In this document: positions 1,963 to 35,813 of the stretch, piece after piece
Layout: each line of letters opens with the position of its first letter
Numbering within the stretch: the stretch's first letter is position 1
Source of the DNA: a virus
Direction: 5' to 3' (one strand)
IMG/VR virus record: IMGVR_UViG_3300028025_003760
Span: 1-41,967 of that record
DNA length: 41,967 nucleotides
Program-made: the position numbers and the translations under genes
Notes under the pieces: generated by a model
Seen by the model: the letters and a program-made list of their open reading frames with translations, nothing else
Told to the model about the DNA's origin: nothing
The model's database searches: none

Positions 1963-2270
1963 TGAATCAAGAAAAAATAATGAACGCAGCCGATGAGTCT
2001 CAGGTTAAAGAGGCAAAGAAAAAAGAAAAGTTCGGTCGTGAGCAAGAGCTTAGCGACGTGAAGTTCATTCTCTCAACAGAACAGGGACGCAGATTCTTTT
2101 GGCGTTACCTTAGTATCTGTGGAGTTTTTAAAAATAGTTTTACTGGATCTTCTGAAACATTTTTCAACGAAGGGAAGCGCTTGATCGGCACGACTCTTCT
2201 AACTGAAATGGTGACAGCAGATCCCGATAGTTACTTGAAGATGATCAAACAACACAATGGAGAATTGTAA
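1959..2270 (+). CDS. Bbp19-like head-region protein
   Basis: The protein has 103 residues. After a charged Lys/Glu-rich N-terminus it contains the pattern DVKFILSTEQGRRFFWR, CGVFKNSF, and FFNEGKRLIG, ending with a PDSYLKMIK segment. This order of motifs matches the Bbp19-like family, small proteins found between portal and scaffold in BPP-1-like and related podoviruses. Their exact role is not settled. The ATGATG start overlaps the portal stop by four bases, and the next gene starts one base after this stop, so it belongs to the head-assembly operon. Confidence 0.8.
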   Translation: MMNQEKIMNAADESQVKEAKKKEKFGREQELSDVKFILSTEQGRRFFWRYLSICGVFKNSFTGSSETFFNEGKRLIGTTLLTEMVTADPDSYLKMIKQHNGEL

Positions 2271-2981
2271 ATGACAACACCGAATCCAGCAGTGGAGGCT
2301 CAAGTTACACCTAACGCCCCTGCCGCAGATCCAGCAGTAGTCACGCCTCCAGTTGTTGCAACGCCGCCGGTGACCCCACCAGCTGAAGCCGCAAAGCCTG
2401 CTAACACTATTGTGACAGCACCGCCCGCAGCCGCAGCTCCAGTGACAGATCCAGCAGCAGCAGCACCGAAGGCTGATGACAAACCCGCAGACCCGCCGAA
2501 ACCTGATGACAAAAAAGTTGTACCAGATGCGTATGATTTAAAGTTACCAGATGGTTCCTTGCTAACCGCGACCGATCTTGAGGAGATTTCTTCTTACGCG
2601 AAAGAGAAAGGCTACACTCAAGAGCAAGCGTCAGAGTTAATGACAAGAGAACATTTAGCAGTCAGCGAGTATCATGAAGCTCAACAGGAAGCGTTCAAAG
2701 CGAAAACTGAAGAGTGGAAAAAAGCAGTCTCCATGGATAAAGAGCTTGGCGGTGACAACTTGGCAAAGTCTGCTGAGTTTGCATATCGAGCTGTTGAAAG
2801 GTTCGCGACCCCAGAGTTCAAGGCTGAGTTAGACAAGACAGGTTTTGGAAATCATCCAGAAGTTGTTCGAATGTTTTCTCGAATTGGACGGGCAATGTCT
2901 GATGATAAAATCATTGGAAATGGAGCGCCGCCTACAGAAAAGAAGTCGATGGAAGAGATCTTCTATCCGACAAAAAAATAA
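2271..2981 (+). CDS. Capsid scaffolding protein
   Basis: The protein has 236 residues with a low-complexity Pro/Ala/Val/Thr-rich N-terminal third (residues 1-75). A charged helical region follows (KLPDGSLLTATDLEE, then Glu/Lys/Ala-rich helices to about residue 180) and a short basic C-terminus. Podovirus scaffolds typically combine a disordered acidic or Pro-rich N-terminus with a helical C-terminus that binds coat protein, and sit directly before the capsid gene, as here. Function is inferred from composition, size and position more than from a diagnostic motif. Confidence 0.8.
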   Translation: MTTPNPAVEAQVTPNAPAADPAVVTPPVVATPPVTPPAEAAKPANTIVTAPPAAAAPVTDPAAAAPKADDKPADPPKPDDKKVVPDAYDLKLPDGSLLTATDLEEISSYAKEKGYTQEQASELMTREHLAVSEYHEAQQEAFKAKTEEWKKAVSMDKELGGDNLAKSAEFAYRAVERFATPEFKAELDKTGFGNHPEVVRMFSRIGRAMSDDKIIGNGAPPTEKKSMEEIFYPTKK

Positions 2982-22126: not shown

Positions 22127-22632
22127 ACTTCTTGGAAGCTGTTGATTTTATTATTGACCTCGAGGGCGGGGCAACGGTTGTTAACAATCCAGATGATCCA
22201 GGTGGATTAACTAAGTTTGGCATTTCAAAAAGATCTTATCCAAATCTTGACATAGTAAATCTGACTATCGACCAGGCTCGTGAAATTTATAAGAAAGATT
22301 TCTGGGATAAGGTCAGTGGAGATCTTCTGCCATCAGGTTTAAATCTTTTGGTTTTCGATGCGGCAATTAATCAAGGTGAAGATACTGCTAGTATGGCGCT
22401 CCAAAGGATCGTGCGTGCTAAGGCTGATGGAAACATTGGAACTGTAACTCTAGAAGCTTTGCAAGGAAGGTCAATAAGAGAATTGATTTTACTGTACTCT
22501 TTGGAGCGTCATCGCCTTTATACAAAAGCGAAGTGGGATAAGTTTGGAGCTGGATGGTCGAAGAGATTATTGATCGTTTCGTTAAAAGCTGGTGAGGCTG
22601 CAAACGGACCACGGGTTAACAGCCTCACCTAA
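22123..22632 (+). CDS. Endolysin, glycoside hydrolase 108 family
   Basis: The protein has 169 residues with the GH108 N-terminal pattern: DFIIDLEGG with Glu14 as the expected catalytic acid, then NNPDDPGGLTKFGISKRSYP, a YKKDFWDKVSGDLLPSGLN block and LLVFDAAINQG. The C-terminal part (about 90-165; GNIGTVTLEAL and RHRLYTKAKWDKFGAGWSKR) corresponds to the peptidoglycan-binding domain found with GH108. It cleaves peptidoglycan glycan strands at the end of infection. No signal peptide is present, so it needs a holin. It is the last gene of the rightward late block. Confidence 0.93.
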   Translation: MNFLEAVDFIIDLEGGATVVNNPDDPGGLTKFGISKRSYPNLDIVNLTIDQAREIYKKDFWDKVSGDLLPSGLNLLVFDAAINQGEDTASMALQRIVRAKADGNIGTVTLEALQGRSIRELILLYSLERHRLYTKAKWDKFGAGWSKRLLIVSLKAGEAANGPRVNSLT

Positions 22633-22706
22633 AACGGAACGGATAGTGAGAACCAAGAATGACTGCCTATGAAATCAATACGTGATTACCTATCGGCGCT
22701 TGAAAT

Positions 22707-22925
22707 TTAAAACTTAATACCAAGCTTTGGAATGTGGATGAGCGTGGGTTCTTTTTCTTTGCCTGCTTTTCTAATCGCATTGAGGGCACGAAGGGCATAG
22801 CCGTGAGCTGAGGTCCAAGGGTGACCTGACTCATTCATCTTCGCCATTGTCTCAAAGGTGGGATCGCAAATGACTTCAACTTTGTCGCCTGGAAGATCTG
22901 TGATTGTGATAGTTACTTTCGCCAT
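22707..22925 (-). CDS. Conserved-looking small protein, unknown function
   Basis: The protein has 72 residues and its ATG follows AGAGGTAAGC on the minus strand. The sequence MAKVTITITDLPGDKVEV..DPTFETMAK has beta strands followed by a helical part SAHGYALRALNAIRK and a strand THIHIP-like end (TLIHIPKLGIKF). I recognise a recurrent type of small phage protein but no function. It lies convergent to the endolysin at the 3' end of the leftward block, with an upstream ATAACTTATG box shared with the lipoprotein gene. Confidence 0.7.
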   Translation of the reverse strand: MAKVTITITDLPGDKVEVICDPTFETMAKMNESGHPWTSAHGYALRALNAIRKAGKEKEPTLIHIPKLGIKF

Positions 22926-22972
22926 GCTTACCTCTTGGCAAATACTACAAGAGGGATTTCTCTGATGGCAAC

Positions 22973-22999
22973 ATCTTATGACATAAGTTATGATATAAT
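22973..22999 (-). promoter_or_regulatory. Dyad operator-like site upstream of the 22925 gene
   Basis: The sequence CTTATGACATAAG is a 5-base inverted repeat with a 3-base centre, followed by a second ATAAGTTAT half-site and a TATAAT hexamer at 22994-22999 on the plus strand. The 11-base ACATAAGTTAT (22981-22991) recurs exactly at 23639-23649 upstream of the lipoprotein gene. This suggests a shared regulator or promoter element. Confidence 0.4.
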
Positions 23000-23000
23000 C

Positions 23001-23063
23001 CTGGTGTGGGCTGAGCCTGCCCGGTACAGCGAACGCTCGAAACGCCGCTTAGTTCCACACCAG
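23001..23063 (-). other. Branched inverted-repeat element overlapping a stop codon
   Basis: CTGGTGTGG (23001-23009) and CCACACCAG (23055-23063) are perfect complements. Between them AGCG/CGCT (23028-23031 with 23046-23049) forms an inner stem, and GGGC/GCCC (23008-23011 with 23019-23022) another, so a branched fold is possible if the outer stem is seven pairs. It contains the stop codon of the small gene 23049-23189. No U-tract follows on either strand, so it is not a standard terminator, and it is too short (63 bases) and lacks an anticodon arm for a tRNA. Confidence 0.5.
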
Positions 23064-23189
23064 CTTATCATTATTATTATCCAAAGCCTTTTCCAATTGT
23101 TCTCTTAACACTTCAGCCATGCCCCAAGCGCCGATGGCTTCGAACATCTGAATTGAGTAATTCATTTGCATCACATCTTGCATGGTCAT
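23049..23189 (-). CDS. Short ORF of 46 residues, unknown function
   Basis: The ATG at 23189 is preceded on the minus strand by AGGAGTGAGTT, the strong ribosome-binding motif shared by several genes of this phage. The product MTMQDVMQMNYSIQMFEAIG then WGMAEVLREQLEKALDNNND is Met/Gln-rich and helical. It lies directly downstream of the lipoprotein gene and probably shares its transcript. The stop codon lies inside an inverted-repeat element. No family is recognised. Confidence 0.62.
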   Translation of the reverse strand: MTMQDVMQMNYSIQMFEAIGAWGMAEVLREQLEKALDNNNDKLVWN

Positions 23190-23198
23190 AACTCACTC

Positions 23199-23609
23199 CT
23201 ATTTATAAGACGTACAGGTTTGGTTTGAGGTATTACATAAGCTTAAATTTGCACCGACATTTAGGTAAGTGTAGCCCTGGTTTGCGATAGATCCACACTG
23301 AGAGGCACCGCCTCCAGTCCAAGTGCAAGATCCAATGTTGGCAGTTCCTTGTGACTGAGATCCTGAGATCGTAAGATTGCACAAGCAAGAAGCGTTGGCA
23401 TATAGTTCGAACTCAACAACCTGAGTCCCGAACACGGCACCAGTTAATTCAAGAGTCTGACCTGATCCTGTTGACCAGGTGCTGAAAAGTTCTTTTGTTG
23501 ATTTGATTGATTCAGCTCCACCGGGCTGAGCACATCCTATTAAGAATGTGGACATCATGCACACAATGTAAGCCAAGCATATTAATTTGATATCATTCTT
23601 TGAAAACAT
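23199..23609 (-). CDS. Cysteine-rich lipoprotein, possible moron
   Basis: The start at 23609 follows CAGAGTGAGGTCCAA. The product has 136 residues. Residues 1-26 carry a basic N-region, a hydrophobic stretch LICLAYIVCMMSTFLIGC and the lipobox LIGC with Cys26. The mature part is Ser/Thr/Gly-rich with several Cys pairs (CLC, SCTW, QCGS, LCNTSNQTC), suggesting a disulfide-stabilised beta domain exposed in the periplasm or at the surface. It has its own extended -10 promoter. Phage lipoproteins in such positions are often superinfection-exclusion or host-surface modifiers, but that is inference. Confidence 0.78.
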   Translation of the reverse strand: MFSKNDIKLICLAYIVCMMSTFLIGCAQPGGAESIKSTKELFSTWSTGSGQTLELTGAVFGTQVVEFELYANASCLCNLTISGSQSQGTANIGSCTWTGGGASQCGSIANQGYTYLNVGANLSLCNTSNQTCTSYK

Positions 23610-23630
23610 TTGGACCTCACTCTGAGATCC

Positions 23631-23639
23631 AATATAGCA
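23631..23639 (-). promoter_or_regulatory. Extended -10 promoter of the lipoprotein gene
   Basis: On the minus strand the sequence TGCTATATT has the TGn extension and a TATATT -10 box (five of six), about 22 bases before the lipoprotein start. The upstream ATAACTTATGT box (23639-23649) abuts it. This gives the lipoprotein expression independent of the recombination operon. Confidence 0.45.
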
Positions 23640-23664
23640 CATAAGTTATAAGTTTAAAATTATA

Positions 23665-24540
23665 TCAGATGGGTAGATCAGATTGATCCACGTCTTCATT
23701 ATAAACGACTTCAGTTTCACGGTGTTCGTCTGGAGGCAACACCGCTGTCTCTTCTTTAGACTCTTTAGAAGTCACACCCTTGACGAGCTTACCAAGTCGA
23801 GACGGCTTCTTTGCTGAAACAGATAACGCATTTGTATCCACTTCACCTTGAGTTTCTTTACCTTCAAGATCATAGAAGTCATCATCAGCTTTGATGGTCA
23901 TCTCGATATCTGTTGATAATGGAAGGCGCTTTGATAATCTTCTGATGGCAGACTTTCTCCACATCTCAGCTTCGAATGCTCCAGCCCACGGTCCAGATCC
24001 TGCTGACCTTGAACTCTTTTTAATTGCATCCACCTGCTGACTCGTTAAGACTTCAATATAGACAGCTCCATCTTTCATCTTGGCAAGAGCATAAACACCT
24101 CTTAGTTTTCCACGGTCTTCAAAGATGTTAGGCTTGTGCTCAAGGTGTTCACCTTCACCGTCAATCCAATACTTGAAATCATCTTTCTCATAAACCAATT
24201 GGCTCGTGATACTTGCAAGCTCACCAGAGTTTCGTACTTGCTTTAAGATCCCTGCGACCATCGGCATGAACTGACAGATCTCTTGGCCTGCTTTGTTTTT
24301 AAATGTGACGATGGCAGATTCTTTACCATCAGGTAAGAGACCGGCTTGAGCTGACTTCATGCACGCAGCATAGAAGCTTTGACGATCAGCCCGACTGAGC
24401 GCTGGTGTTTGACCGATGGCTGTGAAGATCACTCTCATGAATCTTTCAGCAGGTATGTGTTTTGGAAGAGCCATCTTGAATTGGCTTTCCATTTTACTTA
24501 AGTTACTTTTAAGCTCATCGACTGGGGTAATGTTGGACAT
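23665..24540 (-). CDS. recT: RecT family single-strand annealing protein
   Basis: The protein has 291 residues. The core matches RecT/Redbeta-superfamily annealing proteins of the RecT branch: ERFMRVIFTAIGQTPAL, FYAACMKSAQAGLLPDGKE, ICQFMPMVAGILKQVRNSGEL, then VYEKDDFKYW, YALAKMKDGAVYIEVL and the AMWRKSAIRRL-like segment (EAEMWRKSAIRRLSKRLP). The C-terminal 70 residues are charged and variable, as usual. It binds single-stranded DNA and anneals complementary strands, working with the nuclease at 25653-26600. The start has AGGAGTGAGACC upstream. Confidence 0.95.
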   Translation of the reverse strand: MSNITPVDELKSNLSKMESQFKMALPKHIPAERFMRVIFTAIGQTPALSRADRQSFYAACMKSAQAGLLPDGKESAIVTFKNKAGQEICQFMPMVAGILKQVRNSGELASITSQLVYEKDDFKYWIDGEGEHLEHKPNIFEDRGKLRGVYALAKMKDGAVYIEVLTSQQVDAIKKSSRSAGSGPWAGAFEAEMWRKSAIRRLSKRLPLSTDIEMTIKADDDFYDLEGKETQGEVDTNALSVSAKKPSRLGKLVKGVTSKESKEETAVLPPDEHRETEVVYNEDVDQSDLPI

Positions 24541-24553
24541 GGTCTCACTCCTA

Positions 24554-24649
24554 TTAAGTTCGCAGATCGTGGACCGGAATTTTTACCCGACCCTGATTTA
24601 AGATTTTGCAACGGCTTGCCTGTACATCTCCACGATCTAGAACAATTAC
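24554..24649 (-). CDS. Probable -1 frameshift extension of the Lys-rich leader ORF
   Basis: This open frame has no start codon of its own but encodes protein-like sequence (VIVLDRGDVQASRCKILNQG, then RVKIPVHDLRT) and stops at 24554-24556, immediately before the recT ribosome-binding site. It begins where the preceding ORF (24646-24717) reads G AAA AAG TAA. A -1 slip on AAAAAG joins the two into one 54-residue product. A ten-base-pair inverted repeat starts ten bases after the slip site. A homopolymer sequencing error is the main alternative. Confidence 0.5.
   Translation of the reverse strand, partial: VIVLDRGDVQASRCKILNQGRVKIPVHDLRT
24564..24638 (-). repeat. Ten-base inverted repeat in the recT leader
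   Basis: AGATCGTGGA (24564-24573) and TCCACGATCT (24629-24638) are perfect complements around 55 bases. Inside on the minus strand, GCAA/TTGC and a TCGGG/TCCGG hairpin with a seven-base loop can also form. The element is 75 bases long and looks superficially like a tRNA, but no anticodon arm can be drawn. It lies within the frameshift extension and just upstream of recT. Confidence 0.5.
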
Positions 24650-24717
24650 TTTTTCTTATCAGACTTTTTAGCTGGTTTCTTTGCTGCTGCTTTTTTGCTT
24701 GCTGCTTTCTTAGCCAT
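24646..24717 (-). CDS. Lys/Ala-rich 23-residue peptide (zero-frame product)
   Basis: The ATG at 24717 follows AGGGGGCAAC. The peptide MAKKAASKKAAAKKPAKKSD ends KKK and resembles a histone-H1-like nucleic-acid-binding tail. The gene sits between the 59-residue ORF and recT. Its last codons AAG AAA AAG TAA form a slip-prone run, and a longer product may be made by -1 frameshifting into the open frame that ends at 24554. DNA or RNA binding is inferred from composition only. Confidence 0.6.
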   Translation of the reverse strand: MAKKAASKKAAAKKPAKKSDKKK

Positions 24718-24731
24718 GTTGCCCCCTATTG

Positions 24732-24911
24732 TTACTGTGGATTATCCATCAGTCTATTATGAACTATCACTTTATGGTTGACACGTCCACTTAGAAAGTC
24801 AGCTTTGTTGTATTCATCCCACTCGGTTCCACAAGGGCAATGCTCCACCTCGATATGCTCAATGATATCTTCAACTGGTACAACGTGGATGTCTTCTTTC
24901 TCTTTGGCCAT
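24732..24911 (-). CDS. Small Cys/His-containing protein in recombination operon
   Basis: The protein has 59 residues and begins MAKEKEDIHVVPVEDIIEHI, followed by EHCPCGTEWD and VNHKVIVHNRLMDN. The order, a PVxDxxxH segment, a CxC pair and a C-terminal VxH...D region, is like small phage proteins encoded near recombination or replication genes; I do not know their function. The Cys and His residues could bind a metal. AGG upstream of the ATG is a modest ribosome-binding site. Confidence 0.7.
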   Translation of the reverse strand: MAKEKEDIHVVPVEDIIEHIEVEHCPCGTEWDEYNKADFLSGRVNHKVIVHNRLMDNPQ

Positions 24912-24952
24912 TACCTATGATTCTGACAACTGTTCTCAAGACTGTCATCCTC

Positions 24953-25246
24953 TTAGACCAGGTGTTGCAAGATAGAAACTTTCTTGTGGAGAGGCATCGT
25001 TGAATGACCAATTGATCTGATCAGTTCACTGACTGAAGATGTTTTCTTTGGACCAGTCTTTGTTGCTGTTGATGCCGCATCAAGCTTGCCTCTAAAGTTT
25101 TGAGCGATGGCCCACCCCTTCCAAGTTTTACCAGTTGGAGTCTTAAGTCCCTGCTCATTAAACTGATCAGCGATTTGATCAAAGGTGTAGCCCTTTGCTC
25201 TTAAGTGTTTCACTTGTTCTAAGATTGTTTGCTTTGTCTTTGTCAC
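24953..25246 (-). CDS. HTH-like small protein of recombinase-helical type
   Basis: The protein has 97 residues. The segment VKHLRAKGYTFDQIADQFNE followed by QGLKTPTGKTWKGWAIAQNF resembles the helix-turn-helix found in serine-recombinase helical domains and related small phage proteins (pattern GxTxxxIAxxLNxxGxxTPxGxxW). No catalytic domain is attached, so it is probably a DNA-binding accessory rather than a recombinase. The C-terminal part is Ser/Lys-rich. The start overlaps the upstream gene's stop by four bases, and GTGAGG precedes it. Confidence 0.68.
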   Translation of the reverse strand: MTKTKQTILEQVKHLRAKGYTFDQIADQFNEQGLKTPTGKTWKGWAIAQNFRGKLDAASTATKTGPKKTSSVSELIRSIGHSTMPLHKKVSILQHLV

Positions 25247-25530
25247 ATTTCCCTCACTTGTGATTGTTCAGTATCCAGCTTTGTTTCCATAACCGCTCTG
25301 TAATTATCGGCATCCACTGTTGCGAACACTTCAGCTAAGAAGCTCCACTCCCACTCGCCAATGACAACAATCTTTTTCGTAGCCTTGACCAGCTCGAACT
25401 GATCACCTGACAGTTCAATCGTGGTGTGCTTGTTGTTGCCGTCACCCTGCTCAGTAATCAGAGCGGAGTAAGGACCTGCCATTGACTTGTATCTTCGGAC
25501 CCTTTCGATTTGTTCTAGTATCCCTGACAT
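25243..25530 (-). CDS. Small protein of recombination operon, unknown function
   Basis: The chosen start at 25530 follows AAGGAAGAAAGC; a longer in-frame start at 25593 overlaps the neighbour more. The 95-residue product begins MSGILEQIERVRRYKSMAGP and contains TIELSGDQFELVKATKKIVV and IGEWEWSFLAEVFATVDAD. Mixed helices and strands are likely. No family is recognised. It overlaps the next gene by four bases and sits between the nuclease and recT. Confidence 0.65.
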   Translation of the reverse strand: MSGILEQIERVRRYKSMAGPYSALITEQGDGNNKHTTIELSGDQFELVKATKKIVVIGEWEWSFLAEVFATVDADNYRAVMETKLDTEQSQVREM

Positions 25531-25672
25531 GCTTTCTTCCTTTGTTGAATTGTTTGATAAATTTATTTGCTTGAGCTTTAGCTGTTCGTTCATTCTTAGA
25601 GCCAGTCCAAATCACGAGACCCCACTCACGGGTGTCACCGTCAGATGTCATATCAACTCTTAGTCTTTTCAC
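25451..25672 (-). CDS. Short basic protein overlapping the exonuclease end
   Basis: A GTG at 25672 with GGAGAAAAGCC upstream gives 73 residues: VKRLRVDMTSDGDTREWGL, VIWTGSKNERTAKAQANKF, then a basic tail. The sequence reads like a real small protein, but its 5' end overlaps the nuclease stop by 20 bases and its 3' end overlaps the next gene by 80, so the true borders are uncertain. An ATG further upstream in the same frame lies deeper inside the nuclease gene. Confidence 0.5.
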   Translation of the reverse strand: MKRLRVDMTSDGDTREWGLVIWTGSKNERTAKAQANKFIKQFNKGRKHVRDTRTNRKGPKIQVNGRSLLRSDY

Positions 25673-26600
25673 TCTTGGCTTTTCTCCAGTTGATTCTAAA
25701 CATCCTGAAGCCCTCTCTATTAACTTCATAAGATGAAGGTCCGACCATGCTAGCGGTAATGCTGAACAGGTCTCCAGAAACTTTCTCGGCATCCTTGATC
25801 TGAGTTAGGATGTGGGCTTTGTATTCATCCTTACGAACTTCAAGCTTTTTAATTACATCCGACACTCTCTTATATTTCTTTGCCCACTTGTTAATCTCTT
25901 CATTTGATTCAATCACTTTGCCTGGTGCTGCGTATCCATAAAGTTTAGAGATGACATCCATGTCATGTTTGAAATCAGGTGAAGGTGGATTCTTATCTTG
26001 AACTCGTTGCCAGAATTCTTTGATCTTGTTTCGAATAGATTCAATGATCTCATCATCAGCATCACGCTCGATGAGAACAACTTTGTTTCCACCGATGAAC
26101 GCACCGATGTAAGCTTTCTTTAAACCAGTGAGTGCCATCTGATGTTGGACCTGAAGCTCAATGTGGGGCGGGGCCTCAATGGTTCCATCCTCTTCATCTT
26201 CAATCCAGCCATCACGAAAGGCCATGCCGTCCACGTTTTTAATTTCCAAGATTGCAGCGTCTTCCTTTGGGTCGTGATATCTTTTATCTAGAAGCATGTA
26301 ATCAAACGAAGATCCCATCTTGAGTTCATCATCATATATATATTCTTTTGCTTCCCTTACTTCCCACCCTTGATCCTCAGCGATTCCTTCAGCGATAGAG
26401 TTCTGCAATCGAGTGCCCCATCTTGTTCGATCTGTCTCAGTAAAATCCACCTGAAGTTCTGAGACGTGGCGGTGATACAATTCGAATTCTGTTTGATATG
26501 GAGACAAGCCAAAGAGGGCAGAGACTTCGGTTGAATTAATGTTTGTTGATCTCAACTTGAGCCAGTGCGTCTTATCATCAGGAAGAATTCTATGGATCAT
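25653..26600 (-). CDS. YqaJ/lambda-exonuclease-type 5'-3' recombination nuclease
   Basis: The protein has 315 residues. The YqaJ-type core is visible: WLKLRSTNINSTEVSALFGLSP at the N-terminus, RWGTRLQNSIAEGIAE with Glu71, then KMGSSFDYM with Asp100, AILEIKNV with Glu119 and Lys121 (the D...ExK metal site), and HIELQVQHQMALTG with Gln150/Gln152 as the QxQ-like motif. It degrades the 5' strand at double-strand ends so that RecT can load on the 3' tail. It is the first gene of the leftward operon, with CGGAGTGAGAC before the ATG. Confidence 0.93.
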   Translation of the reverse strand: MIHRILPDDKTHWLKLRSTNINSTEVSALFGLSPYQTEFELYHRHVSELQVDFTETDRTRWGTRLQNSIAEGIAEDQGWEVREAKEYIYDDELKMGSSFDYMLLDKRYHDPKEDAAILEIKNVDGMAFRDGWIEDEEDGTIEAPPHIELQVQHQMALTGLKKAYIGAFIGGNKVVLIERDADDEIIESIRNKIKEFWQRVQDKNPPSPDFKHDMDVISKLYGYAAPGKVIESNEEINKWAKKYKRVSDVIKKLEVRKDEYKAHILTQIKDAEKVSGDLFSITASMVGPSSYEVNREGFRMFRINWRKAKSEKTKS

Positions 26601-26616
26601 GTCTCACTCCGAAATG

Positions 26617-26630
26617 TGTATAGTTATACA
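26617..26630. promoter_or_regulatory. Operator-like dyad at the head of the leftward operon
   Basis: TGTATA (26617-26622), two bases, then TATACA (26625-26630) is a perfect dyad 16 bases upstream of the nuclease start. On the minus strand it contains TATAAC and TATACA, possible -10 boxes. A repressor bound here would block leftward transcription. Confidence 0.5.
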
Positions 26631-26659
26631 TGTTGCTTTTAAGCGAACACTTGAAACAC

Positions 26660-26688
26660 TTGCAAGTCATAACGCATTAGTGTAACAT
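26660..26688 (+). promoter_or_regulatory. Possible promoter of a short terminated RNA
   Basis: TTGCAA (26660-26665), a 17-base spacer and TAACAT (26683-26688), four of six matches in each box. The dyad TGTAA-cat-TTACA (26681-26693) overlaps the -10 box, and ACTTGCAAGT, a perfect 10-base palindrome, covers the -35 box. The only downstream feature before the terminator is a roughly 57-base untranslated stretch. Confidence 0.35.
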
Positions 26689-26694
26689 TTACAG

Positions 26695-26751
26695 ATGCAT
26701 GAATCTCGGTTCACGCTAAGCCCAGGGGACTCACTCCCTCTGGGTTTTTTT
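26695..26751 (+). ncRNA. Candidate small RNA with anti-Shine-Dalgarno terminator loop
   Basis: A transcript from the promoter above would start near 26695 and end at the strong terminator at 26721-26751. It has no convincing ORF. Positions 26729-26737 read ACTCACTCC, the reverse complement of GGAGTGAGT, the ribosome-binding sequence in front of several of this phage's genes (starts 23189, 24540, 26600, 27286 and 31282). The central bases are in the hairpin loop. Existence and function of the RNA are inferred from these two facts. Confidence 0.35.
26721..26751 (+). terminator. Strong rho-independent terminator
   Basis: CCCAG (26721-26725) pairs with CTGGG and GGGA (26726-26729) with TCCC, with a single bulged T and a CTCAC loop, followed immediately by seven T residues. 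It is the clearest intrinsic terminator in the window. It reads rightward and has no annotated gene upstream of it on that strand. Confidence 0.8.
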
Positions 26752-26756
26752 ATGTG

Positions 26757-26791
26757 TTGCCTTAATGGAAACAGTGCGTTAATATATTAAC
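26757..26791 (+). promoter_or_regulatory. Rightward early promoter with palindromic operator
   Basis: TTGCCT (26757-26762), 17 bases, then TAATAT (26780-26785). The perfect 14-base palindrome GTTAATATATTAAC (26778-26791) overlaps the -10 box, so a dimeric repressor would occlude polymerase. The predicted start near 26792 leaves a very short leader before the AGAGTGAGG ribosome-binding site of the 26807 gene. Confidence 0.6.
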
Positions 26792-26806
26792 AGAGTGAGG
26801 TGAATC

Positions 26807-26977
26807 ATGAGCTGGTATACAGAATGGCGTGCTTCAAAAGATATGGAAGGAACTGAAATCAAATGCACTTGTCAAGATTGTGGCAAGACTTTTAATAAAG
26901 GTGACGAGGGTGACAATGAAAAGTTCTGCCTTCGCTGTGAACATTTGGACTCTCAAGACTTTGAAGATCAAGATTAA
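26807..26977 (+). CDS. Small zinc-ribbon-like protein
   Basis: The ATG at 26807 follows AGAGTGAGGTGAATC. The 56-residue product begins MSWYTEWRASKDMEG and carries Cys20-x-Cys22-x2-Cys25 and Cys41-x2-Cys44, the spacing of a single zinc ribbon (CQDCGK and CLRCEH). The C-terminus is acidic. It is the first gene of the rightward early operon, right behind the operator-controlled promoter. Such small ribbons in early phage operons are often regulators of transcription or host enzymes, which is only a suggestion here. Confidence 0.7.
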   Translation: MSWYTEWRASKDMEGTEIKCTCQDCGKTFNKGDEGDNEKFCLRCEHLDSQDFEDQD

Positions 26978-27027
26978 ATGTTGACTACTCCCATGCGTTT
27001 CCCTAGGTTCATCAGCTTGGGGGCACC

Positions 27028-27264
27028 ATGAAATTAACACCAGCAGATTTTGTCATACAAAAATTCGGAGGCGTTCGGGCAACAGCTCGAGCCCTAAATA
27101 AATCTCCATCTTCAGTTTGCAAATGGAGAACTCGAGTAACCAAAAAAGGAATCAAAGGATCAATCCCTAACACGGCTCAACCAATCATTCTCAAAAGAGC
27201 TAAGCAATTAAAAGTAAACATCAAAGCCGCTGACTTGATCGGCGGTCGTGTCGTTAAAAAATAA
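27028..27264 (+). CDS. HTH DNA-binding regulator, Cro-like
   Basis: The protein has 78 residues. The pattern DFVIQKFGGVRATARALNKS then PSSVCKWRTR is a helix-turn-helix in which ATARALNKSPSSVCKWR spans both helices, followed by a GSIPNTAQPIILKRAKQ segment and a basic tail. The same order (IPxxxxxxILxxAK) is found in small phage regulators of the Cro/YdaS-like and carph-isopro types. It follows GGGGGCACC and lies close to several dyads at 26617-26791 that are plausible operators for it. Confidence 0.8.
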   Translation: MKLTPADFVIQKFGGVRATARALNKSPSSVCKWRTRVTKKGIKGSIPNTAQPIILKRAKQLKVNIKAADLIGGRVVKK

Positions 27265-27285
27265 TACATAACTTGGAGTGAGCAA

Positions 27286-28674
27286 GTGAGTATTATTTTA
27301 AGACCATATCAGGTTGACCTCGTTGGTCGCGCCCGTAGAGAGATGCTTCGAAAGATCAAATCAATTCTCATGGTCGCGCCCACTGGTGCTGGCAAAACCT
27401 CTATCGTTTCCCACATGCTAAAGACCGCACACGAAAAGGGTCACGCTTCAATCTTCATCGTTCATCGTCGTGAGTTGGTGATGCAATCAGCTTTGGCATT
27501 TCAAAAGGTGGGTGTTCCATTTGGAATCATCTCATCTGGATTCATGGCAGATTATAGTCAGCTTGTTCAGATCGCATCCATTCAAACCTTGGCGAATCGT
27601 CTTCACTTATTAAGACACAAGCCACAGCTCATCGTTCCTGATGAAGCCCATCACACACCAGCTAAGAGCTGGGCCAAGGTTATCAATTCATTTCCTGATG
27701 CTTATAAGATTGGTGTCACGGCAACACCTGAGAGACTGGACGGTCTTGGCTTGGGTGATTACTTTGATTCCATGATCTTAGGTCCAACGGTTTCAGATCT
27801 GATCAAGGCTGGATATCTTTCTGACTATAAAATATATGCGGCATCAAGTGTGGATCTCTCTCAAGTTCACACCCGCATGGGTGACTACGTGAACAGTGAG
27901 CTTGCTTCCATCATGGATAAACCAAAGCTGACTGGTGATGCCATCAAAGAATATCAGAGAAGGGCACCAGGCAAGAGGGCTGTTGTCTTCTGTGTTAACA
28001 TCGAACACTCGCTTCACGTGGCTCAACAGTTCAACGAGGCTGGCATCAGAGCTGAACATATAGACGGCGGCACTGACTCCAGTCACCGCGATGCTGTGCT
28101 TAAAAAGTTCGCAGCAGGTGAAGTCAAAGTGATAACAAATGTCAACCTCTTAGGTGAGGGTTTCGACTGTCCATCTATTGAGTGTTGCATATTGCTCAGG
28201 CCAACAAAGTCTCTAGGATTTTATTTACAAATGGTGGGTCGGGCACTCAGGCCTTCACCTGGTAAGAAGTTCGCTATCATATTAGATCATGTGAGGGCTT
28301 GTGTTGAGCATGGTATGCCAGACCAAGATAGGACGTGGAGCCTTGAGGGAAACAGAAGAAAAGAAAAAGGTGAGCCATCTGTCAAGATCTGTCCTGTTTG
28401 TTTTGCGGCGCTGATGGCAGCTTCATCACAGTGCGCTGAATGTGGAAATATATTTACACAAGAGAAAAGAAATGTTGATCTCCAGGCAACAGATGAAGAG
28501 CTGATTGAAATAGATAAGGAACGAGCAAAGCGTGAGTTTAGAAAAGAACAGGGGCAAGCTTTGGATCTTCATCAGTTGATAGAGCTTGGCAAGAAAAGAA
28601 ATTATAAGAAGCCCGAAGCCTGGGCCAGATTTGTTTTCCATGCGAGACAAAAGAAAAAGATCGGGAGGGGATAG
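27286..28674 (+). CDS. SF2 DEAH-box helicase
   Basis: The protein has 462 residues. Motifs in order: RPYQVDLVGRAR (Q-like motif), Walker A APTGAGKT (31-38), DEAH (119-122), TAT (145-147), then NVNLLGEGFDCPSIE and QMVGRALRP (motifs V and VI). A C-terminal zinc cluster CPVC...CAEC follows, then a basic tail. This is the restriction-type or DNA-repair-type SF2 ATPase common in phage replication modules. GTG start with TTGGAGTGAGCAA upstream. It probably unwinds or translocates on phage DNA in replication or recombination. Confidence 0.92.
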   Translation: MSIILRPYQVDLVGRARREMLRKIKSILMVAPTGAGKTSIVSHMLKTAHEKGHASIFIVHRRELVMQSALAFQKVGVPFGIISSGFMADYSQLVQIASIQTLANRLHLLRHKPQLIVPDEAHHTPAKSWAKVINSFPDAYKIGVTATPERLDGLGLGDYFDSMILGPTVSDLIKAGYLSDYKIYAASSVDLSQVHTRMGDYVNSELASIMDKPKLTGDAIKEYQRRAPGKRAVVFCVNIEHSLHVAQQFNEAGIRAEHIDGGTDSSHRDAVLKKFAAGEVKVITNVNLLGEGFDCPSIECCILLRPTKSLGFYLQMVGRALRPSPGKKFAIILDHVRACVEHGMPDQDRTWSLEGNRRKEKGEPSVKICPVCFAALMAASSQCAECGNIFTQEKRNVDLQATDEELIEIDKERAKREFRKEQGQALDLHQLIELGKKRNYKKPEAWARFVFHARQKKKIGRG

Positions 28675-31262: not shown

Positions 31263-31281
31263 TGATCTTAAGGAGTGAGAC

Positions 31282-31611
31282 ATGAGTGCAAGAGGAAAGA
31301 TTTATACGACAAGAGAAATTAAAACTATGGGTGGAGATGTTCAAATCTCAACTAAAACAAAACCTAAATATGCCCACGTGGTTTTGGTTTTGGATACGAT
31401 AGAAGCGGCATCAGATTATCCAGTAGATGCTGCCGTTGATAGTCTTAACAATATGGGATGGGTTAAGTTCGATGATGTAATGAAAGTCCACGGCAAAGAG
31501 AAAGCCATGGAAGTTGTTGAGTATGTTAATAAGAAAAATACAAGAGCACTAGCCGCTTTAGAAAAGAAAAAGGTTTTAGATGGCAACAGTAAAAGTAAAT
31601 CAAAAAGATGA
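31282..31611 (+). CDS. Small basic protein, unknown function
   Basis: The protein has 109 residues and starts after AAGGAGTGAGAC, one of the shared GGAGTGAG sites. KIYTTREIKTMGGDVQISTK is strand-like, HVVLVLDTIEAA and DAAVDSLNNMGWVKFDDVMK mixed, and the end is Lys-rich (KKKVLDGNSKSKSKR). The start of a new leader with an inverted repeat suggests that it opens a separately controlled set of small genes (31282-35367). No family recognised. Confidence 0.62.
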   Translation: MSARGKIYTTREIKTMGGDVQISTKTKPKYAHVVLVLDTIEAASDYPVDAAVDSLNNMGWVKFDDVMKVHGKEKAMEVVEYVNKKNTRALAALEKKKVLDGNSKSKSKR

Positions 31612-35367: not shown

Positions 35368-35813
35368 AAGAAAAAGACCTGCTCAATAAAATCCAACTCT
35401 ATGTGACATCAATAGGTAGTAGGCTGTTCAGAAATAATGTGGCCCTGTCGGTTTCGGGTCGTGTCATAGCGGTTCGCTCCAGGGAAACACACACTCTTCA
35501 GCCTGGTGATTTCATCGTAAGAAAAGGTCGGCTCATCAAGTCAGGGCTTGCAACAGGCTCATCTGATTTAATAGGCTGGAAGACCGTCACTATTACACCT
35601 GATCTTGTAGGTTGTAAGTTGGCAGTTTTCACAGCGGTCGAGGGTAAAACCGGAAAACTGAAACTCACTCCCGAACAAGCTGCGTTCTTAGCGGCGGTTA
35701 ACAAAGCGGGCGGCATCGCAATTGAGGCGAGATCAATTGATGATGTGGCAAGTGTTTTCGAGGGGACAAAGAGTGAGCAACATAGACGTGGGGACAAATC
35801 CCCAACAGATTGA
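35364..35813 (+). CDS. VRR-NUC domain nuclease
   Basis: The protein has 149 residues with a TTG start overlapping the previous stop by four bases. The VRR-NUC fold of PD-(D/E)xK nucleases is seen in RLFRNNVA, GSSDLIGW (Asp68), AVEGKTG (Glu93, Lys95 as ExK) and TPEQAAFLAAVNKAGGIAIE. The family is frequent next to phage primase/helicase genes and probably cleaves branched or nicked DNA in replication. It overlaps the following primase gene by 41 bases. Confidence 0.85.
   Translation: MKEKDLLNKIQLYVTSIGSRLFRNNVALSVSGRVIAVRSRETHTLQPGDFIVRKGRLIKSGLATGSSDLIGWKTVTITPDLVGCKLAVFTAVEGKTGKLKLTPEQAAFLAAVNKAGGIAIEARSIDDVASVFEGTKSEQHRRGDKSPTD

Follow-up and report, generated by a model that had tools for sequence, protein, structure and literature searches.

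An intrinsic terminator between divergent operons of a podovirus-like phage, with a loop complementary to five ribosome-binding sites

Introduction

The described systems closest to the locus considered here come from bacteria as well as from phages. In Helicobacter pylori, the intergenic RNA RepG uses the loop of its terminator to pair with the purine-rich leader of an mRNA and regulates genes jointly; it is expressed, conserved and proven by mutants (PMC8295292). LhrC and the UCCC-motif sRNAs of low-GC Gram-positives pair with Shine–Dalgarno (SD) regions through CUCCC, which lies in their hairpin loops, that of the terminator among them (PMC4132741). Among phages, the small c4 RNA of P1/P7 acts on a ribosome-binding site via loops, and OOP of lambda is a short regulatory RNA near early control genes that is cis antisense to cII (both reviewed in PMC12197685).

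The window, i.e. the whole 41,967-base virus record analysed here, is that of a podovirus-like phage. A sequence-only reading of it had proposed a small RNA whose terminator loop would pair with the ribosome-binding sites of several genes. We favour a plainer account, to which we give a probability of roughly 0.6: an ordinary intrinsic terminator lies between divergent operons, the motif shared by five gene starts is a phage-specific SD habit and the match between loop and motif arose by chance or is no more than a minor by-product.

Gene layout

The gene order runs from portal/head–tail adaptor, capsid, terminase and a lengthy rightward block of structural genes, with the rightward late genes ending at 22632, through leftward recT–recE genes to a rightward early block that holds a Cro-like protein and a helicase (Table 1). 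Capsid relatives in cellular genomes, at 51–70% identity, are spread across several phyla, and in many relatives a Cro-like homologue adjoins the helicase. In the interval from recE to the Cro-like gene (26601–27027), the window lacks the leftward repressor-like gene that two relatives (G008 and G012) have there and carries the 56-aa CxxC protein instead, so that any lysogeny control it has is different from theirs. Additionally, the match of a 97-aa ORF at 24953–25246 (−) to the Pfam Recombinase domain (E 2.8e-6) is confined to the N-terminal part; the ORF may be what is left of a serine recombinase, or a small DNA-binding protein that arose from one.

Table 1. Features of the window around the terminator and at the genes that carry the motif
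Feature	Position	Strand	Remarks
46-aa ORF	23049-23189	−	without homologues in searches
GGAGTGAG(T) before the 46-aa ORF	23192..23199	−	exact match
RecT-like annealing protein	23665-24540	−	phrog_148, E 5.2e-63
GGAGTGAG ribosome-binding site of RecT-like protein	24544..24551	−	exact match
RecE-like exonuclease	25653-26600	−	RecE-like phrog_434, E 7.6e-60
GGAGTGAG ribosome-binding site of RecE-like exonuclease	26603..26610	−	exact match
Palindrome TGTATAGTTATACA over possible recE −10, candidate operator	26617..26630		read from sequence; putative function
Weak promoter-like site TTGCAA-17-TAACAT	26660..26688	+	8/12 consensus matches
Hypothetical ~57-nt transcript	26695..26751	+	predicted from promoter-like site and terminator
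Intrinsic (Rho-independent) terminator	26718..26751	+	hairpin and T-tract; loop and flank ACTCACTCC at 26729-26737
Promoter-like TTGCCT-17-TAATAT overlapping palindrome GTTAATATATTAAC	26757..26791	+	8/12 matches; candidate early rightward promoter
AGAGTGAGGTG before 26807	26792..26802	+	SD is GAGGTGA, not a motif member; SD duplex −14.1 kcal/mol, window's strongest
56-aa CxxC protein	26807-26977	+	weak HypA match; first gene past terminator
Cro-like DNA-binding protein	27028..27264	+	phrog_35, E 2.1e-5; Pfam P22_Cro, E 6.8e-5, under curated cut-off
GGAGTGAG ribosome-binding site of helicase	27275..27282	+	exact match
Helicase, GTG start	27286-28674	+	phrog_16, E 1.1e-105
GGAGTGAG ribosome-binding site of 109-aa ORF	31272..31279	+	exact match
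109-aa ORF	31282-31611	+	carries GGAGTGAG leader

The terminator and its surroundings

Between the start of the leftward recE and that of the rightward 56-aa gene lies a hairpin, AAGCCCAGGGGACTCACTCCCTCTGGGTTT + TTTTATGT (26718–26747, +), that is very probably a real terminator: its stem is G+C-rich, its loop falls within 3–8 bases, a U-run follows directly and the hairpin alone folds at −17.4 kcal/mol. It is the top-scoring terminator-like site in a scan of 22.8–32.0 kb and, under a stricter rule, nothing else in the window counts as a strong terminator (score 15, against 11 and 10 for the runners-up, on the opposite strand). We agree with the sequence-only reading that it points rightward and that no convincing gene separates it from a promoter-like site upstream. 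That site, TTGCAA-17-TAACAT, is indeed present, but it matches the consensus at just 8/12 positions, a background level at which sites occur about 4.7 times per kb per strand. A known RNA family for the terminator region was dropped, as a search of the window with Rfam gave no match above the gathering threshold and 22600–27100 gave just a chance-level one.

Which transcripts end at the terminator is a matter of interpretation. The scan of the window found no scoring terminator-like site in the intergenic stretch past the late genes, and the downstream promoter-like site with its palindrome comes directly after the terminator; a stop before the early promoter thus appears to be its most economical role. 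On the preferred reading, the terminator would separate the leftward recE–recT operon from the rightward early operon, and rightward transcription would end there, whether it arrives as late read-through, antisense to recET, or begins as short starts at the weak upstream promoter. The early rightward promoter (about 26757–26785) and the Cro/helicase operon would in this way be shielded. The background density of the upstream promoter-like site is in keeping with this ordinary role.

Alternatively, the rightward early operon could have an attenuator in its leader: transcripts from 26660 would halt at the terminator unless antiterminated, which would provide a timing control in cis. In the read-through RNA, the 5′ part, CAUGAAU..UUCAC, would mask the ribosome-binding site of 26807. 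The predicted read-through fold does pair the SD and start of 26807 with the leader's 5′ part in a helix, and in G012 the cro-like gene and the helicase have a strong rightward terminator between them. However, the z-score of this fold is just −1.5, a second promoter-like site lies past the terminator and rightward terminators upstream of the helicase in relatives are in only marginal excess (10 per 187 kb vs 24 per 571 kb elsewhere). We consider attenuation here to be quite improbable.

The motif at gene starts

As the sequence-only reading had noted, GGAGTGAG precedes five genes (starts 23189, 24540, 26600, 27286 and 31282), and the match is exact at all of them, 6–7 nt ahead of the start when counted after GGAG. 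Counting both strands, the window holds seven exact sites, i.e. these five ribosome-binding sites, the complement of the terminator loop (26730–26737) and a site within a coding region (35664–35671). The five genes are scattered over both strands, all in the recombination/early half, and no structural gene is among them. Two further starts that had been counted as near-members, 26807 and 23609, have ordinary SD sites, GAGGTGA and GAGGT; we dropped both as motif members because the AGAGTGAG match overlaps these SDs. One-mismatch sites in the window are not above chance (23 vs 31 expected), so the signal lies in the exact sites and their position.

How unusual is the repetition? TGAG follows GGAG at 5 of 25–26 likely starts in the window versus 5 of 932 in 82 related records totalling 1.25 Mb (Fisher 2e-6), and on the latter count we rejected the idea that starts of this type are a general phage habit. 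The window also tops the count of a single GGAG extension among itself and 16 related records, and G003 has four copies of another GGAG extension, GGAGTTTA. In other words, the repetition is real, yet other genomes do similar things.

GTGAG had been taken to play no part in ribosome binding, which is not correct. With the 16S tail taken as GAUCACCUCCUU, an assumed sequence that may not be the host's and that pairs with GGAGGTGA, GGAGTGA pairs over a one-base bulge (TGA to UCA), adding about 1–2 kcal/mol. On the preferred reading, the motif at the five starts would be a phage-specific extended SD in which GGAG and TGA pair across this bulge. However, rRNA pairing does not fully explain TGAG, because 17–28% of random spacers pair with the 16S tail equally well; this shortfall counts against the ordinary-terminator reading, as does the location of all five sites in one half of the window. 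The repetition of GTGAG had been taken to suggest a second constraint. The repetition does go beyond chance, but the gain in rRNA pairing and the occurrence of such leaders in relatives without the RNA weaken that suggestion.

Could GGAGTGAG instead be the site of a phage or host regulator that binds RNA or DNA and acts on translation or transcription, the terminator copy being chance or a decoy? Restriction to recombination and early genes would fit such a regulator, but the flanks of the motif are not conserved, there is no dyad past the SD region and the terminator copy is antisense, so that an RNA-binding protein would be blind to it there. We regard this explanation as highly improbable.

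Loop–leader complementarity and the hypothetical RNA

The proposed complementarity between the terminator loop with its flank and GGAGTGAG is exact over 8–9 nt. Among 194 terminator-like hairpins, only that of the window complements five starts of its own record, and the next best complements three; each hairpin was screened for 8-mers that complement such starts, 112 hairpins coming from 97 records (window included) and 82 from 80 further loci, the sets partly overlapping. The probability of CTCACTCC in a random hairpin of equal composition is 4.5e-4, rising to about 2e-3 over the four window terminators, a figure that does not count in the free choice of coincidence in 42 kb. Real as it is, and unusual by these statistics, we take the match as suggestive; both the 8-mer probability and the hairpin comparison weigh against the ordinary-terminator reading.

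Since the complementarity is real and unusual, a trans-acting RNA has to be weighed. A phage RNA of ~57 nt would run from the weak promoter at 26660 to the terminator. Its CUCAC(UCC) loop would first pair with GUGAG in five leaders (recE, recT, the helicase and two small genes) and go on to cover their SDs, jointly lowering translation of recombination and early genes. The unit stands alone, without a gene, and terminator-loop sRNAs that act on G-rich leaders are known, i.e. RepG (PMC8295292) and LhrC (PMC4132741). The predicted fold of 26695–26751 (−22.6 kcal/mol, z −3.6) leaves CUCAC wholly unpaired, with an opening cost of 0.45 kcal/mol for ACUCAC. However, CUCAC is all that the loop exposes in this fold, the CC of the anti-SD is in the stem and opening the full anti-SD, CUCACUCC, costs 4.8 kcal/mol. 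With accessibility on both sides taken into account, modelled net pairing comes to −8.7 kcal/mol for the helicase, −6.2 for 23189, −5.3 for 31282, −4.7 for recE and just −1.8 for recT, where local structure masks the site; a non-target, 4913, reaches −6.3 kcal/mol, within the range of the targets. These modelled energies fail to set the five genes apart, and a kissing-type start on GTGAG is conceivable. Given also a promoter at background level, GGAGTGAG-type leaders in relatives without the RNA and a control region without a homologue, we find the anti-ribosome-binding-site RNA possible but doubtful. An elaboration of it, in which the terminator-loop RNA would read GTGAG as a code word in SD spacers on both strands and so define a self-targeting regulon in which RecE, RecT and the helicase are repressed together, strikes us as unlikely.

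Elsewhere in the window, at 22975–23063 (+), a palindrome, CTTATGACATAAG, is followed by a perfect extended −10, TGATATAAT (22991–22999), and directly after that by a 16-bp hairpin, CTGGTGTGGGCTGAGC...GCTTAGTTCCACACCAG, which folds at −29.1 kcal/mol (z −3.1) and gave no match in Rfam and tRNA searches. Judged by these predictions, it looks the better structured-RNA candidate of the two, ahead of 26695–26751.

Relatives and conservation

Searches of the viral collection with each of the helicase, RecE, Cro-like and RecT proteins, and with alignments, reached relatives of no more than about 56–65% identity; the closest ones of the early region have about 56% in the helicase and 65% in RecT. No sequence compared contains a homologue of the control region. 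In the recE–recT stretch of two relatives (G011 and G023), two genes have a GGAGTGAG leader and recE and recT have GGAGTTGA; in a third (G021) GGAGTTGA precedes recE; the recE leader of these three, ACACATTTAGGAGTTGAGCATG, aligns with ACACATTTCGGAGTGAGACATG of the window, and in L177 AAGGAGTGAG precedes recE. No complementary terminator was found in G011, G023 or G021, and the extended leader can therefore exist without the putative RNA, which argues for the ordinary-terminator reading. A comparable terminator upstream of recE occurs in 0 of 80 recE-bearing relatives; one of the 80 loci has a weak terminator pointing away from recE, ≤700 bases upstream. The loop motif followed by a T-run occurs at just three other sites in 2.9 million viral contigs, one a terminator-like hairpin (L137) and two chance sites elsewhere, none of them homologous, and L137 has no GGAGTGAG ribosome-binding site within 14 kb.

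Several further observations were made in these records. L137, an unrelated GC-rich phage with a serine-recombinase-like gene, has at 2209–2275 (+) a pair of neighbouring hairpins. Their loops read UCAACUCCCU and ACUCACUCC, TTTTTT comes after the second and promoter-like sequence adjoins; the pair has no significant Rfam match and, from its loops, is possibly an anti-SD RNA. In G011, G023 and G021 (e.g. L094, L103 and L101), recE and recT of one genome have a near-identical leader, CATTTAGGAGTTGA, which suggests leader copying or co-selection inside recombination operons. In G003 (L087, at a contig end), a long tandem GCCATTGCCATCGCCAT array lies upstream of recE, and the recE match contains an in-frame TAG.

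Implications and comparison with known systems

If the RNA model were true, the window would hold a rare case of a phage sRNA directed by an address tag that recurs in the phage's own mRNAs, and a simple RNA switch over recombination genes. If it is not, the locus is a caution: SD-rich leaders and C-rich terminator stems yield tempting complementarities, and relatives have the motif without the RNA.

RNAs of the P1 c4 type lie just upstream of their target antirepressor gene, within one transcript, whereas here the gene past the terminator encodes a 56-aa CxxC protein without the exact motif, and the motif genes lie on both strands. Likewise, c4 of P1/P7 has a single target, the ant mRNA, as compared with five scattered targets and no identified ant-like gene in the window (PMC12197685). 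Lambda OOP acts in cis on cII, whereas the RNA of the window would pair over 8–9 nt in trans. UCCC is present redundantly in LhrC, at several sites of which one is single-stranded, but the window has a single site, partly in a stem (PMC4132741). The likeness to RepG is that of a terminator loop complementary to G-rich leaders, although in the window this likeness is one of sequence complementarity alone and the loop is not C/U homopolymeric. Ordinary phage intrinsic terminators also have a G+C stem, a short loop, a U-tract and an inter-operon position; the loop of the window differs in being complementary to the extended SD that the phage itself uses. A phage RNA directed at a ribosome-binding site is already known in c4, and the RNA of the window, if made, would join a known kind.
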